Notes under the pieces: model-generated | The model's input: only the letters and a program-made list of their open reading frames with translations | What the model was told of the DNA's origin: nothing | Database searches by the model: none | Made by a program: the position numbers and the translations under genes | Shown here: piece after piece, positions 17,568-33,578 of the stretch | Position numbering within the stretch: position 1 is the stretch's first letter | How the letters are laid out: each line of letters starts with the position of its first letter | IMG/VR virus record: IMGVR_UViG_3300030099_006345 | Span: 33,143-84,406 of that record | From: a virus | Length of the DNA stretch: 51,264 nt | Direction: 5' to 3' (one strand)

Positions 17568-17665
17568 TAAGTGATAAATGGTGGAGATGACAGGAATCGA
17601 ACCTGCGACCTACTGCGTGCAAGGCAGTTGCTCTCCCTACTGAGCTACATCCCCATTATCACTTA
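17568..17665. repeat. 10-bp inverted repeat flanking the tRNA gene
   Basis: TAAGTGATAA at 17568-17577 and TTATCACTTA at 17656-17665 bracket the tRNA almost exactly. In the transcript they would form a stem closing on the tRNA, a likely processing signal. Confidence 0.7.
17579..17654 (-). tRNA. tRNA-Ala (anticodon TGC)
   Basis: A 76-base cloverleaf including an encoded CCA. The acceptor stem GGGGATG/CATCTCC has the G3:U70 pair that identifies alanine tRNAs. The D arm is AGCTCAGTAGGGAGAGC. The anticodon arm has CTTGCAC in its loop (anticodon TGC), and the T arm has GGTTCGATTCC. A 10-bp inverted repeat flanks the gene. It lies between the lipoprotein gene and the small membrane genes, with no separate promoter visible. 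It would decode GCA and GCG/GCU-type Ala codons and might pair functionally with the AlaRS-like protein at 27494. Confidence 0.96.
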
Positions 17666-26457: not shown

Positions 26458-26485
26458 AGTATAACATAAAAATGTCAACTGTCAA
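26458..26485 (-). promoter_or_regulatory. Sigma-70 promoter for the helicase/RNR operon
   Basis: Minus strand TTGACA (26485-26480), 16-base spacer, TATACT (26463-26458) with TG extension. The -35 lies inside the last codons of the exonuclease gene. Confidence 0.72.
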
Positions 26486-27431
26486 GTAAAATTTTATTAA
26501 AATTTCCAAAAAGTGTTTCGAGTTTTAATGTAATTTGCCCATCTTCCATCAATAGGCGTTGGAAATCAAGCTTTTGCCATTCAGCCTCGAAATTCTCAAT
26601 AGCAAAATTTATTTGTTCTCTGGTTATGGACGATATCACAGGTTTATACAATTGCATGATATCATAATTGTTCTGAATTAAATCAAGGTTGGCAAGAATG
26701 TTTTCATGAAGTTTAACCTTTTTGTCCACGTTTTTGCAAACTTCAGCAATTGTCTCAACGGTTTGTACCTTTTCTTCGCCCATAAAAGGAAAGCGATTTT
26801 TGATTGTTTTAAGACCAGCCCGAGGAACACCGGGCAAGTTATCTGACTTATCTCCAGCAATGGCACGAGCAAGGGCAAAATTATTGGGATGTATACCATG
26901 TTCCTCCATAAGAGACTGTTCATTGACCAACTTCTTTTGGATTGGTCGGTACAACATTGTGTCGTGTCTGATGAGTTGGAAGAAATCTCTATCGCTTGAG
27001 ATAATATATTTATCCCAGCCTCTATATTTATCGTGTCTAATAGCATAAGCGATAATATCATCGGCTTCCACATGGTCAACAACGATTTGAATTGTAGGTG
27101 TCTCATTTAAATACTCCACTAGTCTAATGTACTGATTTGCCTTATTGGCTGTTTGCTGTTTTTCGTTCAATTCTACCATTCTTCTATTAAAACGAATAGG
27201 CTTTCTTCCGTCCTTGTAGTTTTTGTTCATTTGTTTGCGTTTAGAGGACCCTGAATGGCCGTCCCAAGCGATTATAATCTCGTCAGGGCTAAACATACCG
27301 CAAACTTTCTGGAGACTCTTAATAAAGCCTATGGTGCCTCCTATGGGCTCTCCTGATGGGGCCAGTGTCGGATTCACAACATAGCTTCTTAAAAACATGT
27401 TGAGTCCGTCAATTATCATTAACTTCTTCAT
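26475..27431 (-). CDS. 5'-3' exonuclease (FEN/Pol I N-terminal type)
   Basis: 318 aa. It has the acidic clusters of the flap-nuclease family: MKKLMIIDGLNMFLRSY, then IIIAWDGHSG, VDHVEADDIIAY, YIISSDRDFFQLI and a helix-hairpin-helix AIAGDKSDNLPGVPRAGLKT. It would remove RNA primers or flaps like T4 RNase H. The gene has its own promoter (27455-27483), and GGAGG precedes the ATG. Confidence 0.94.
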   Translation of the reverse strand: MKKLMIIDGLNMFLRSYVVNPTLAPSGEPIGGTIGFIKSLQKVCGMFSPDEIIIAWDGHSGSSKRKQMNKNYKDGRKPIRFNRRMVELNEKQQTANKANQYIRLVEYLNETPTIQIVVDHVEADDIIAYAIRHDKYRGWDKYIISSDRDFFQLIRHDTMLYRPIQKKLVNEQSLMEEHGIHPNNFALARAIAGDKSDNLPGVPRAGLKTIKNRFPFMGEEKVQTVETIAEVCKNVDKKVKLHENILANLDLIQNNYDIMQLYKPVISSITREQINFAIENFEAEWQKLDFQRLLMEDGQITLKLETLFGNFNKILLDS

Positions 27432-27493: not shown

Positions 27494-28357
27494 TTATTTT
27501 TCTTGTTTCAAGCTTTCAATGAAGTCTATATCGACTCCCATTGTATCAAACCACCATTCTTTTGATTTACCTTGATACTTCGCTTTGTGTTTGTCTTTGT
27601 TGTACCTCTTGATAACCTTGTCCTGTCTTTGTTTTTCTTTTAGGTAGTGTTCGTTGTCCCAAGTTGATTGAAGGCGATAAAGCTCTCTCAAAAGCTTTCT
27701 AAAGACATACCCTTGTTCTTTGTTTGAAGGGTAATAGCCTGAATGTAGAAGTTTCTCACATGCCTCGATTAGGATCTCCTCTCTTGTCTGTTCGACAACT
27801 TCATTCACAAACATGTCAAGTCTTTGTAAACCGAACCCAACATCGATGCAAGTGCCGAGAGGATTGACTATATTTCCTATCTCAACATCGTCTTTGAAGA
27901 ACTCTGTACAATAACCTCCGATTTGTCCATCGGTCCATGTGCATTCGTCATCTGCTCTTATCTCAACATCATAATTGTCATAAAGACTCTTCCATTCTTC
28001 CATTTTATCGGGATGTATGGTCACATAGTCTATTTTGATCCCCAAGACATCCTCGACGAATTCCATCCAAAAGTCAACGGCTTGTTGAACCGTCAATTGT
28101 CTGAATGAGAACAAACCCATCATGTCAAAGTATAAGAAATGGGTGCCATCTCCTATCTCGTCCAAATCTTTTAGTCTAACACACGATTGTATGTTAGCTA
28201 TTGTTCCCACATCTTCTGATGAGAATTTCTTCTTAAACTGCTGCATTCCTGCTGGGCAGAACAGGGTTGTTTCATCATAAGGACACACAGTATCATCTAA
28301 CTGAAACTGTATGCCTTTTGATTCGCAATATTTACTGTATTCTTCTGTTATATTCAT
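27494..28357 (-). CDS. Alanyl-tRNA synthetase-like catalytic domain protein
   Basis: 287 aa from the ATG at 28357, coupled by TAATG to the small gene before it (GGAG upstream). The first 185 residues follow the AlaRS catalytic core: YDETTLFCPAGMQQFKKKF (cf. LLFTNAGMNQFK), motif 2 IQSCVRLKDL with Arg 61, THFLYFDMMGLFSF (cf. HTFFEMLGNFSFG), a YCTEFF segment (cf. CSEIF), and motif 3 IDVGFGLQRL with Gly 174 and Arg 179. In cellular AlaRS motif 3 is GxGLERL; here Glu is Gln. The editing and C-Ala domains are absent, while residues 190-287 are helical and basic. Cellular AlaRS is about 875 aa. It may charge tRNA-Ala without proofreading or activate alanine for another acceptor. Confidence 0.82.
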   Translation of the reverse strand: MNITEEYSKYCESKGIQFQLDDTVCPYDETTLFCPAGMQQFKKKFSSEDVGTIANIQSCVRLKDLDEIGDGTHFLYFDMMGLFSFRQLTVQQAVDFWMEFVEDVLGIKIDYVTIHPDKMEEWKSLYDNYDVEIRADDECTWTDGQIGGYCTEFFKDDVEIGNIVNPLGTCIDVGFGLQRLDMFVNEVVEQTREEILIEACEKLLHSGYYPSNKEQGYVFRKLLRELYRLQSTWDNEHYLKEKQRQDKVIKRYNKDKHKAKYQGKSKEWWFDTMGVDIDFIESLKQEK

Positions 28358-28449
28358 TATCTCCAATCCTGATGAATTGCCCATGATCCAATCATTGGTG
28401 CAATAATAAATACGACAGCAAATGCTATCCATAATTCTGTATAATCCAT
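28357..28449 (-). CDS. 30-residue membrane peptide
   Basis: MDYTELWIAFAVVFIIAPMI plus a short tail GSWAIHQDWR. One membrane span, with AAGGAGAAATAAA before the ATG at 28449. The stop is TAATG with the AlaRS-like start, so the two are translated together. Unknown function. Confidence 0.6.
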   Translation of the reverse strand: MDYTELWIAFAVVFIIAPMIGSWAIHQDWR

Positions 28450-28450
28450 T

Positions 28451-29383
28451 TTATTTCTCCTTCATTAGATTACGCATTTTAAAGAGTGCTTGCTCTTTGT
28501 GCTTGGCTTCAAGCATAATGTCCATTGGCAAACCATAGGTGTTTATTGGTCGGACATATGAGTCTGAGTGGGCTTGGGGTTTGATCTTTGGATCTCCGTA
28601 TTCATCTGATCTAGACTCTGAATAGTGAACCACAGGGCGAACACCCACATCCCAAGTGGAAAGAGCCATTTCAAGAGCTTCTTGCTCTGATTGACCTCCA
28701 CTGTGTAAACTGTGGTGATGATAGTCAAATACCACAGGAATGCCAATGCGTTTAAAGATATTATCATATAATTCCCTCGTTGTGTACAATGATGGTTTAT
28801 CATCGTTTTCGACTGTTAGTCTTGTTTTGACGGCTTCTGATAATCTTTGAAAATTCTTGCAAAAGTTACCAACGGCCATAGGTTTGTCATCATAAGCTGC
28901 TCCTACGTGAATGTTAATTTTAGCATAAGTAGTTCTTGGAAGACACATGAGATCAAATATCTCACCATGGATCTCCAAGTCTCTCATGGTTCTTAGTATG
29001 ACTTCCTCTCTTGGAGAGGTTAGTTTGTTGAAGGGGCCCGGATGCGTAGTTACACGAATGTCGTTTTCTGCTGCATACAGACCTGCTTCGTACAAAGCTT
29101 CAGATATTTGTTCGTATTCTGGAAGCTCTGTTAGTTGATATTCAGATGCCCACGGGATTAAGTCCGAAGACATTCTGAAGAAATTAATATTGTTTTCTTT
29201 ATTCCATTTAAGTATTTTAAGTAAGTCTCTGCAATTTGCAAGAGACAATTGTGAAGCATAAGCTATTCCCTTTTCTTGAAAGGTTCTTTTGATCATACTT
29301 CTGTTTGTTGTTATGCGTTGTTTCTTTGGTCTTTGTGAAAAGCCCATATTGATACAAGCATAGCCCAATCTATAATTAGACAT
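28451..29383 (-). CDS. uvsE: UV damage endonuclease (UVDE/UvsE)
   Basis: 310 aa. It matches the UVDE TIM-barrel throughout: RLGYACINMGFSQ, FFRMSSDLIPWASE, RVTTHPGPFNKL, KINIHVGAAYDDK, RLTVENDDKPSL, IPVVFDYHHHSLH, and VRPVVHYSESRS. It nicks 5' of cyclobutane dimers and (6-4) photoproducts and so would repair phage or host DNA in sunlit water. Promoter at 29405-29433; CGGAGGATAA precedes the ATG. Confidence 0.95.
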   Translation of the reverse strand: MSNYRLGYACINMGFSQRPKKQRITTNRSMIKRTFQEKGIAYASQLSLANCRDLLKILKWNKENNINFFRMSSDLIPWASEYQLTELPEYEQISEALYEAGLYAAENDIRVTTHPGPFNKLTSPREEVILRTMRDLEIHGEIFDLMCLPRTTYAKINIHVGAAYDDKPMAVGNFCKNFQRLSEAVKTRLTVENDDKPSLYTTRELYDNIFKRIGIPVVFDYHHHSLHSGGQSEQEALEMALSTWDVGVRPVVHYSESRSDEYGDPKIKPQAHSDSYVRPINTYGLPMDIMLEAKHKEQALFKMRNLMKEK

Positions 29384-32822: not shown

Positions 32823-33578
32823 TTAGCCTATTAATTTATCAAAGGCTTCGTCAACTGCGTCTTTAGCTCCGTACTTTACGGTTTCAGAGGATGATCCTTC
32901 CGATCCATCAGCACTTAAGAATTCGTTTAACAATGCTTGTACATCAGCAGTTGTTTTTCTCTCAAACTGAGCTCCTATATCAGGAACTGAGTCTAATAAA
33001 GCGTCACAGTCAGTAACATCATCATCACACAGGACAGAGGGACGACGACGAGGCTTAAGAGTCGTTTTAGGGAAAGAACCGGGAGTTCCGGGAATATCGT
33101 AATTTAATACGACATCAGTACCAGACTCTGGATCTGTAATATCACCATAATCAGGATCAAGGACGTATCCTAAAAGCGTTTCATAAGCCATTTTGCCGTA
33201 AGACCAGACTTTTACACCTTCGGTCTCTTTTCCACGAACTAAAATTGGAGAGAAATAACGCTTGCGAACAAAAAGCTTTTTTGCTTCTTTTTTAGCAAGA
33301 TCATCGTTATTGTCCACGCCTTCTTTCCATAATTTGGAAGCGAAGTCACAAATTGGACATTCTTCATTAAAGTTACGCTTCGGGCACATAATACCCGGAT
33401 TTTTACCTACGTTATAATGAAAGTGGAATTCCTTAAACGGATCGCCATCTTTTGTTGGTAAAATACGGATTGTTTGGTCACCTTGTTCAGGTCTCCATTT
33501 GGTGTCTTTTTTATTAGCATTAGCACCATTCTTGCTTGCATTGAGTTTCCTTCTCATTGCTTCTAAATCTATAGCCAT
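32823..33578 (-). CDS. 32: Single-stranded DNA-binding protein (gp32-like)
   Basis: 251 aa from the ATG at 33578 (AAAAGGAG upstream). It has a basic N-terminal B-region (MAIDLEAMRRKLNASK), an OB-fold core with a zinc-type motif (FHFHYNVGKNPGIMCPKRNF, then ECPICDFASKLW), KLFVRKRYFSPILVRG, and an acidic C-terminal tail ending KYGAKDAVDEAFDKLIG. The order matches T4 gp32. It coats ssDNA and interacts with UvsX and polymerase. The leader has a hairpin and a T4-late-like promoter; the gene ends at a terminator. Confidence 0.92.
   Translation of the reverse strand: MAIDLEAMRRKLNASKNGANANKKDTKWRPEQGDQTIRILPTKDGDPFKEFHFHYNVGKNPGIMCPKRNFNEECPICDFASKLWKEGVDNNDDLAKKEAKKLFVRKRYFSPILVRGKETEGVKVWSYGKMAYETLLGYVLDPDYGDITDPESGTDVVLNYDIPGTPGSFPKTTLKPRRRPSVLCDDDVTDCDALLDSVPDIGAQFERKTTADVQALLNEFLSADGSEGSSSETVKYGAKDAVDEAFDKLIG

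Follow-up and report, generated by a model that had tools for sequence, protein, structure and literature searches.

A phage-encoded miniature alanyl-tRNA synthetase and a putative alanine-codon frameshifting leader among its relatives

Several virus-encoded or truncated alanyl-tRNA synthetases (AlaRSs) have been described. According to the sections of the report that we cite (PMC10036535), the mini-AlaRS of Tupanvirus (TuAlaRS, 461 residues) charges tRNA-Ala as well as an acceptor microhelix and rescues yeast, and a fragment of E. coli AlaRS (1–461) is a poor binder of tRNA that fails to rescue yeast. The same sections identify N303 and D400 of the E. coli enzyme as the readers of the G3:U70 base pair. 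For huge phages, as many as 15 tRNA synthetases have been reported (PMC7162821), in an article whose main text does not contain the word "alanyl". Here, we analyzed a 51,264-nucleotide stretch of viral DNA, which we call the window (positions 33,143 to 84,406 of the IMG/VR record IMGVR_UViG_3300030099_006345), for a gene that was originally predicted to encode an AlaRS-like protein. We regard its product as a genuine mini-AlaRS and estimate with a probability of roughly 0.8 that it charges tRNA-Ala without proofreading.

The predicted open reading frame is real, and its length and boundaries are exact (Table 1). A longer start at 28432 in the ORF listing was rejected, as the relatives start at the equivalent of 28357. 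The ATG is preceded by GGAG, and its overlap with the stop codon of the upstream ORF might allow translational coupling. Elsewhere in the window, the minus strand carries an adenosine deaminase-like gene (PF00962, 13992–14921). The RecA-like protein of the phage is 34% identical to that of the nearest phage among the matches listed.

Table 1. Features of the mini-AlaRS locus and of the tRNA-Ala gene, in window positions
Feature	Position	Strand	Basis
Mini alanyl-tRNA synthetase gene	27494..28357	−	287 aa = 287 codons + stop
Class II catalytic domain, residues 1–186	27800..28357	−	AlphaFold structure; alignment with E. coli AlaRS
Shrunken tRNA-recognition domain, residues 187–287	27497..27799	−	Structural and sequence alignment to E. 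coli AlaRS
30-codon upstream ORF	28357..28449	−	Stop overlaps AlaRS ATG as TAATG, read by eye
UV endonuclease UvdE, neighbor	28451..29383	−	Pfam PF03851, E=1.9e-59
5'-3' exonuclease, neighbor	26475..27431	−	Pfam PF02739, E=2.5e-27
tRNA-Ala(UGC) gene, G3:U70, A73, CCA encoded	17579..17654	−	ARAGORN, Rfam tRNA 72.9 bits and sequence

All the motifs quoted with the original prediction are present (within PAGMQQFK, SCVR, FDMMGLFSF and GFGLQRL), and the profile search it called for identified the protein as an AlaRS: the Pfam family PF01411 matched with 79.2 bits (E=3.3e-22) against a cut-off of 30.3. The match to the NCBIfam model alaS (76.1 bits, E=1.8e-21) lies below the equivalog cut-off of 457 for full-length AlaRS, as expected because the window protein is short. 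The PDB sequence matches listed for it were all AlaRSs, 14 in one search and 15 in another. An AlphaFold2 model, computed from an alignment of the window protein with 16 relatives, reached a pLDDT of 87.5 and a pTM of 0.81. When this model was compared with the PDB, the best 23 rows from Foldseek and the best 18 from VIA-align (Z-scores of 18.3–23.3) were AlaRSs; a better match to another enzyme, which the original prediction had named as a possible objection, did not appear among these rows. Among the other class II synthetases, HisRS and GlyRS followed with Z-scores of 15.6 and 15.2, respectively, and none gave a Pfam hit above the cut-off. The top VIA-align match (9jc7, Z-score 23.3, 285 residues aligned with an r.m.s.d. 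of 4.3) covers chain residues 1–405, and therefore the aminoacylation module is present in a shrunken form, which is more than the bare catalytic core to which the protein had been thought to be reduced. Twenty-two further viral loci at 78–82% identity argue against a chance ORF.

We counted residues in 87 distinct family members, including the window protein, aligned to E. coli AlaRS. Seven positions of the alanine pocket and the ATP site, which we take to be the equivalents of E. coli R69, W170, N212, V214, D235, G237 and the motif-3 Arg, are invariant in 87/87; the row for E. coli M88 fell on a mis-numbered column, and this residue was left unscored. In the window protein, the corresponding residues are R61 in motif 2, W141, N162, V164, D172 and G174 in the alanine pocket, and R179 in motif 3, with roles that we presume from AlaRSs in general. 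The two arginines presumed to bind ATP (R61 and R179), conservation of which was a check proposed with the original prediction, are thus retained throughout the family. The glutamine noted in motif 3 is also there (Q178), and it carries little weight: the position is variable among the 87 members (Glu 58, Gln 15, Asp 11, Ser 3), and we rejected any special meaning for it. At the position of E. coli K73 in the motif-2 loop, all 87 mini-AlaRSs have a gap, and so does the 594-residue AlaRS of MT835476 in the alignment. This protein from a fecal contig, 23% identical over 98% of the query, was rejected as a mini-AlaRS.

The C-terminal part of the window protein (residues ~187–287) maps onto the tRNA-recognition domain of AlaRS by both VIA-align and sequence alignment. 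Its N212 and D271 align with the G3:U70 readers N303 and D400 of the E. coli enzyme. Asp occupies the position of D400 in 80 of the 87 members, and Asn that of N303 in 60, the Asn reader being replaced in the other 27. The predicted loss of the editing and C-Ala domains is borne out by the structural alignment, which stops near E. coli residue 415. The tRNA_SAD editing domain gave no match in any of the 11 phage records searched for it, including that of the window, and none of the 17 phage records searched for AlaRS had a second match.

The phage itself encodes a possible substrate. The single tRNA that ARAGORN found in the window's record (84,406 bp) is a tRNA-Ala(UGC) with G3:U70, located 10 kb away from the mini-AlaRS gene, and alanine codons in the window, counted over the 38 ATG-initiated minus-strand ORFs with 150 residues or more, are 338 GCA, 370 GCT, 91 GCC and 31 GCG. 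We gathered viral relatives with three scans and found tRNA-Ala in 9 of 17 related records (7 of them scanned whole or nearly so, and LR745206 and G005 in part), all 17 being possibly incomplete. The eight records in which tRNA-Ala was absent comprise five fragments of 33–54 kb (G002, G003, G004, G010 and G015) and three larger ones, namely G007 (232 kb, with a near relative, G011, that has one), G012 (149 kb) and G014 (437 kb). The last of these (loci L051 and L213) carries 26 tRNAs, one with the anticodon CUA and none for alanine, and no tmRNA above the cut-off, and its mini-AlaRS is accompanied by the leader described below. Over 56 viral sources grouped by protein identity at 95, 85 and 70%, Ala was the commonest tRNA type, in 12/30, 11/21 and 9/17 clusters, respectively, followed by Glu with 9, 8 and 8 clusters, which at 70% is 8 against 9 of 17 for Ala. 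G3:U70 was found in 22 of 25 tRNA-Ala calls, the other three being "agc" ones. However, a tRNA-Ala-like match also occurred in 1168 of 50,697 phage records (part of these matches being non-Ala), and such genes are found in phages without a mini-AlaRS; tRNA-Ala is thus no rarity among phages, and finding it is by itself weak evidence.

In several phages with large genomes, the mini-AlaRS is located among other genes of tRNA biology. In LR745206 (635 kb), the 24.8 kb that we fetched contain 13 tRNA genes around it, tRNA-Ala(UGC) included, and a class II synthetase core (PF00587), Thg1 and a PP-loop (TilS-like) protein are encoded nearby. The copy of a 508-kb phage (L042) is flanked on one side by a class II core and on the other by a TyrRS-like gene (PF00579), with genes for tRNA-Gly, tRNA-Tyr and tRNA-Ala nearby. 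The class II cores of 246–266 residues (PF00587) that adjoin the mini-AlaRS at L042:7158–7958 and L027:11220–11960 also stand beside several tRNA-Gly genes, and they might possibly be miniature glycyl-tRNA synthetases.

The family extends beyond phages. One pattern-limited scan of the genomes of 84,980 bacterial and archaeal species, the counts of which are lower bounds, identified at least 49 bacterial mini-AlaRS loci, mostly in Rhizobium, with others in Phyllobacterium, Neorhizobium, Inquilinus, Reyranella, MAGs of Caulobacteraceae, Neisseriaceae and Armatimonadota, and others. Two copies whose NCBI names we looked up are called "alanine--tRNA ligase-related protein". A full-length AlaRS accompanies the mini-AlaRS in 8 of 9 bacterial genomes searched, and a tenth, that of L158, stands outside this count. 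In the Armatimonadota MAG G022 (L175), the mini-AlaRS is the sole PF01411 match and 15/15 other genomes of the order have a full AlaRS, a comparison limited by the completeness of the MAG. Within the order of R. johnstonii, a high-scoring mini-AlaRS was found in 2 of 297 genomes, one of which was the center of the search and the other of which has the gene split over two frames; the mini-AlaRS is therefore an accessory gene in that order. No tRNA-Ala was found in the fetched flanks of the 49 bacterial loci, 7 of which have some other tRNA. On two annotated plasmids of R. leguminosarum/johnstonii, the gene stands beside RES-Xre toxin-antitoxin genes, and a rough ORF clustering of the 49 loci gave no conserved Rhizobium neighbor of clear meaning.

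The most surprising part of the family is absent from the window copy, which has an ordinary ATG, and the way it would work is deduced from sequence patterns. We surveyed 104 family ORFs (window, L003–L024, L027, L136–L183 and L185–L216) for a short leader in the +1 frame, defined by a start codon, no more than a few further codons, one codon with A or G as its third base, GAC or AAC, GCN, and a stop codon 0–7 codons further on. The pattern was found in 56 of the 104 ORFs, in Rhizobium, other bacteria and several huge phages (the start being ACG in L159), and L185 provides a 57th leader with GTG GAC GCA ATT TAA. Relative to this mini-ORF, the AlaRS frame is −1. The putative slip sites are CGG GAC GCN (47), CTG GAC GCN (6) and CTA AAC GCA (3); although the pattern permitted A or G before either codon, G precedes GAC and A precedes AAC in 56/56. 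Examples in which the mini-ORF encodes [LR][DN]A directly before its stop or close to it can be seen at L155:5950–6120, L027:11960–12000, L213, L205–L211 and L194, among others. Clustered at 70% identity, the ORFs form 22 groups, 13 of which include the leader. A strong Shine-Dalgarno sequence is present in 50 of the 56 loci (the six without it being L027, L194, L210, L211, L215 and L159), and the arrangement of GGAGG, spacer, ATG, 0–3 codons and slip site occurs 50 times in the 1.41 million bases of both strands of the 56 leader loci, 50/50 at the gene start, versus 0 times in the 0.85 million bases of 42 loci of the non-leader group.

The mini-AlaRS might also be started in ordinary ways at these loci. 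Between the leader and 20 codons before the GM core, an in-frame TTG is found in 4/57 (L176, L205, L209 and L213) and ATG or GTG in 0/57; some leader loci have an in-frame start closer to the GM core, which would remove much of the N-terminal region. Upstream of the leader, back to the preceding in-frame stop, an in-frame ATG, GTG or TTG is absent in 26/57 and present in 31/57 (20 of them ATG), at scattered distances, the nearest mostly 16–91 bases off, and an ordinary start upstream of the Shine-Dalgarno sequence is possible in these 31 loci. For one plasmid, NCBI appears to place the start at a CTG directly following the mini-ORF, which is possible in many Rhizobium copies; CTG does not stand at that place in L027, L185, L194, L206, L207, L210 and L213. 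What speaks against both kinds of start is that the leader stands at nearly the same position throughout and is shared by many clusters. Of the 43 ORFs without the leader pattern, 41 have an in-frame ATG, with the exceptions of L185 and L212, as do all five ORFs that the leader script did not parse. On a tree of the 87 family members and two outside AlaRSs, in which several deep branches are weakly supported, the leader label needs four changes with the leader rows coming first, and L185, the sister of the window clade (99/92), has the leader. From this placement, the leader is probably old, with the window clade having probably received a plain ATG in its place. RNAalifold on 13 sequences gave no sign of a stimulatory RNA structure around the leader, with 13 pairs, none changed on both sides, and a covariation term of −0.04.

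These features suggest a programmed −1 frameshift at the leader alanine codon. GAC or AAC followed by GCN, read in frame, would lead to the stop of the mini-ORF, and a −1 shift at the alanine codon would let the ribosome continue into the AlaRS. Two known routes would fit: the P-site tRNA-Asp or tRNA-Asn might slip to GGA or AAA while GCN awaits scarce Ala-tRNA, or tRNA-Ser3 might read GC as a doublet, and either route could raise the amount of AlaRS as Ala-tRNA falls. Doublet reading of GCA by E. coli tRNA-Ser3 is described in the passages cited of PMC12202706, which cover GCA, the Rhizobium leader codon being GCC; another model of the same shift is given in PMC6920855, also cited here in part. 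Atkins et al. (2016; PMC5009743) wrote, in the section cited, that hungry-codon frameshifting could yield trans-frame proteins with a starvation-specific function, of which "no examples are known". A −1 leader at an alanine codon of an aminoacyl-tRNA synthetase gene was unreported in the titles and abstract openings that we searched, a collection mostly outside subscription papers. We tentatively propose, with somewhat less than even confidence, that the mini-AlaRS family may act as an alanyl-tRNA starvation device. The ancestral type, retained by Rhizobium and several huge phages and lost in the window clade, would be synthesized after a required −1 shift at the invariant alanine codon. A shortage of Ala-tRNA, through an A site left empty or through doublet reading by tRNA-Ser3, would then switch on a proofreading-free AlaRS. 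If this is true, the leader would represent hungry-codon or doublet-decoding frameshifting put to natural use, and a new and testable kind of control by the aminoacylation level of one tRNA.

A different reason for the same chemistry is that the protein might be a backup AlaRS, keeping alanyl-tRNA flowing when the host AlaRS or tRNA-Ala is inhibited, for example by ascamycin, or destroyed by host defense. This explanation overlaps with our main reading, and as an account of why the gene is there we consider it unlikely, albeit the least unlikely of the alternatives. The bacterial copies mostly come on top of a full-length AlaRS, they seem to be rare accessory genes among the genomes of the R. 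johnstonii order, many of them have a leader that could respond to scarce Ala-tRNA, and AcmD, an extra AlaRS copy, confers self-resistance to ascamycin according to the part cited of PMC12945691. The window gene itself fits less well, with its ordinary start and no leader, and an unsystematic look beside it revealed no inhibitor, defense or resistance genes.

The other alternatives concern substrate and activity. tmRNA, another substrate of AlaRS, could be the main one, with the enzyme supporting trans-translation and feeding the tagged proteins to Clp parts of its own; the window does encode ClpS (PF02617, 14861–15184, minus strand) and ClpP (PF00574, 2914–3633, minus strand). tmRNA exceeded the Rfam cut-off in 4 of the 17 records (RF00023 in G001 and G005, and the permuted form RF04321 in G008, G009 and also G001), and in G008 and G009 the permuted gene (L045:9117–9295 and L046:9138–9312, on phage contigs) begins ~300 bp downstream of the mini-AlaRS. 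However, none was found above the cut-off in the window's record and 12 others of the 17, tRNA-Ala is commoner among the relatives, and ClpS is an N-degron adaptor rather than a receptor of the ssrA tag, which makes this explanation improbable. A little more improbable still is aminoacylation of a target other than tRNA, be it a nucleotide, a carrier protein or a peptidoglycan precursor, as by AcmF or the amino acid:carrier protein ligases; the original prediction had offered a nucleotide, a protein or peptidoglycan as such targets, for which we found no support. The two-domain layout of the truncated AlaRS-like AcmF (PMC12945691), the existence of synthetase paralogues that load carrier proteins (PMC9437257) and the lack of tRNA-Ala in the fetched bacterial loci would be in its favor. 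AcmF, as described in the part cited, has the substitutions N219Q and D232E, whereas the presumed matching Asn and Asp are invariant in 87/87 of the mini family, a correspondence that is assumed from the description with AcmF outside the alignment. The tRNA-recognition residues are mostly retained, several phage copies lie within tRNA clusters, and biosynthetic neighbors common to the bacterial loci did not emerge from the rough ORF comparison. Finally, a catalytically dead tRNA-binding decoy or regulator would agree with the small size and the shortened motif-2 loop without the Lys73 equivalent, but it is the least probable of all, given that the seven pocket and ATP-site residues are invariant in all 87 members, some of which are down to 45–55% identity to the window protein.

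We therefore retain the reading as a mini-AlaRS that charges tRNA-Ala. The fold, the invariant alanine pocket, the kept G3:U70 readers and the presence of the tRNA come directly from the computation. Catalysis, the use of the substrate and the benefit to the phage are what we infer from these sequences: the enzyme is predicted to activate alanine with ATP and would transfer it to G3:U70 tRNAs, above all the phage tRNA-Ala(UGC) and also the host tRNA-Ala, recognizing the acceptor stem alone because C-Ala is missing. The phage might thereby keep alanyl-tRNA available throughout infection, and in the relatives with tmRNA the same enzyme could charge this RNA as well. Charging without proofreading, as suggested originally, agrees with the AlaRS fold, the catalytic residues and the loss of editing and C-Ala. 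Against a charging role, the host AlaRS could charge the window tRNA-Ala, and 287 residues are far below the 461 of the Tupanvirus enzyme. The poor performance of the E. coli 1–461 fragment, the gap at K73, the eight records in which tRNA-Ala was absent, the nearly equal frequency of Glu tRNAs at 70% clustering, the tRNA-Ala-like genes of phages without the protein, the 10 kb between tRNA and gene and the 27 relatives with a replaced Asn reader count on the same side. To our knowledge, a length of ~285 residues is among the smallest of natural AlaRS forms with the activation site and the G3:U70 readers. Occurring in phages as well as in bacteria already equipped with a full-length AlaRS, the mini-AlaRS bears on how little of an AlaRS suffices for acceptor-stem charging and on why viruses carry synthetases.

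In comparison with the aminoacylation fragment of canonical bacterial AlaS, the window protein has the same fold, alanine pocket, class II motifs and G3:U70 readers, but its tRNA-recognition domain shows large internal deletions, its motif-2 loop is shorter, and both editing and C-Ala are missing. The Rhizobium "alanine--tRNA ligase-related protein" (for example WP_028743334.1 on pRL9), ~52% identical to it, belongs to the same mini family; unlike the window gene, it is bacterial, has the +1-frame leader and is additional to a full AlaRS where tested. The family leader could be likened to what we take to be the autoregulatory frameshift of RF2 (prfB), in which a short leader ORF and a change of frame tie synthesis to the gene's own product; the prfB shift is +1 at a stop codon, whereas that of the family leader is a putative −1 at an alanine codon. 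For −1 shifting at GCA alanine codons, the doublet decoding by tRNA-Ser3 is established E. coli biochemistry in the passages cited (PMC12202706). AcmF of ascamycin biosynthesis, in the part cited of PMC12945691, is truncated and AlaRS-like with the same two domains as the mini family, but it is without the activation residues, which the mini family keeps, and moves alanine from Ala-tRNA to a nucleoside. TuAlaRS and the window protein are both virus-encoded and consist of the catalytic and tRNA-recognition domains without editing and C-Ala, and both viruses have a tRNA-Ala with G3:U70, as far as the cited sections of PMC10036535 describe Tupanvirus. TuAlaRS is a 461-residue protein of a eukaryotic giant virus with proven activity, whereas the window protein, known here from its sequence and model, is a phage protein of 287 residues that keeps both the N and D readers, which TuAlaRS has lost (P321 and T416).
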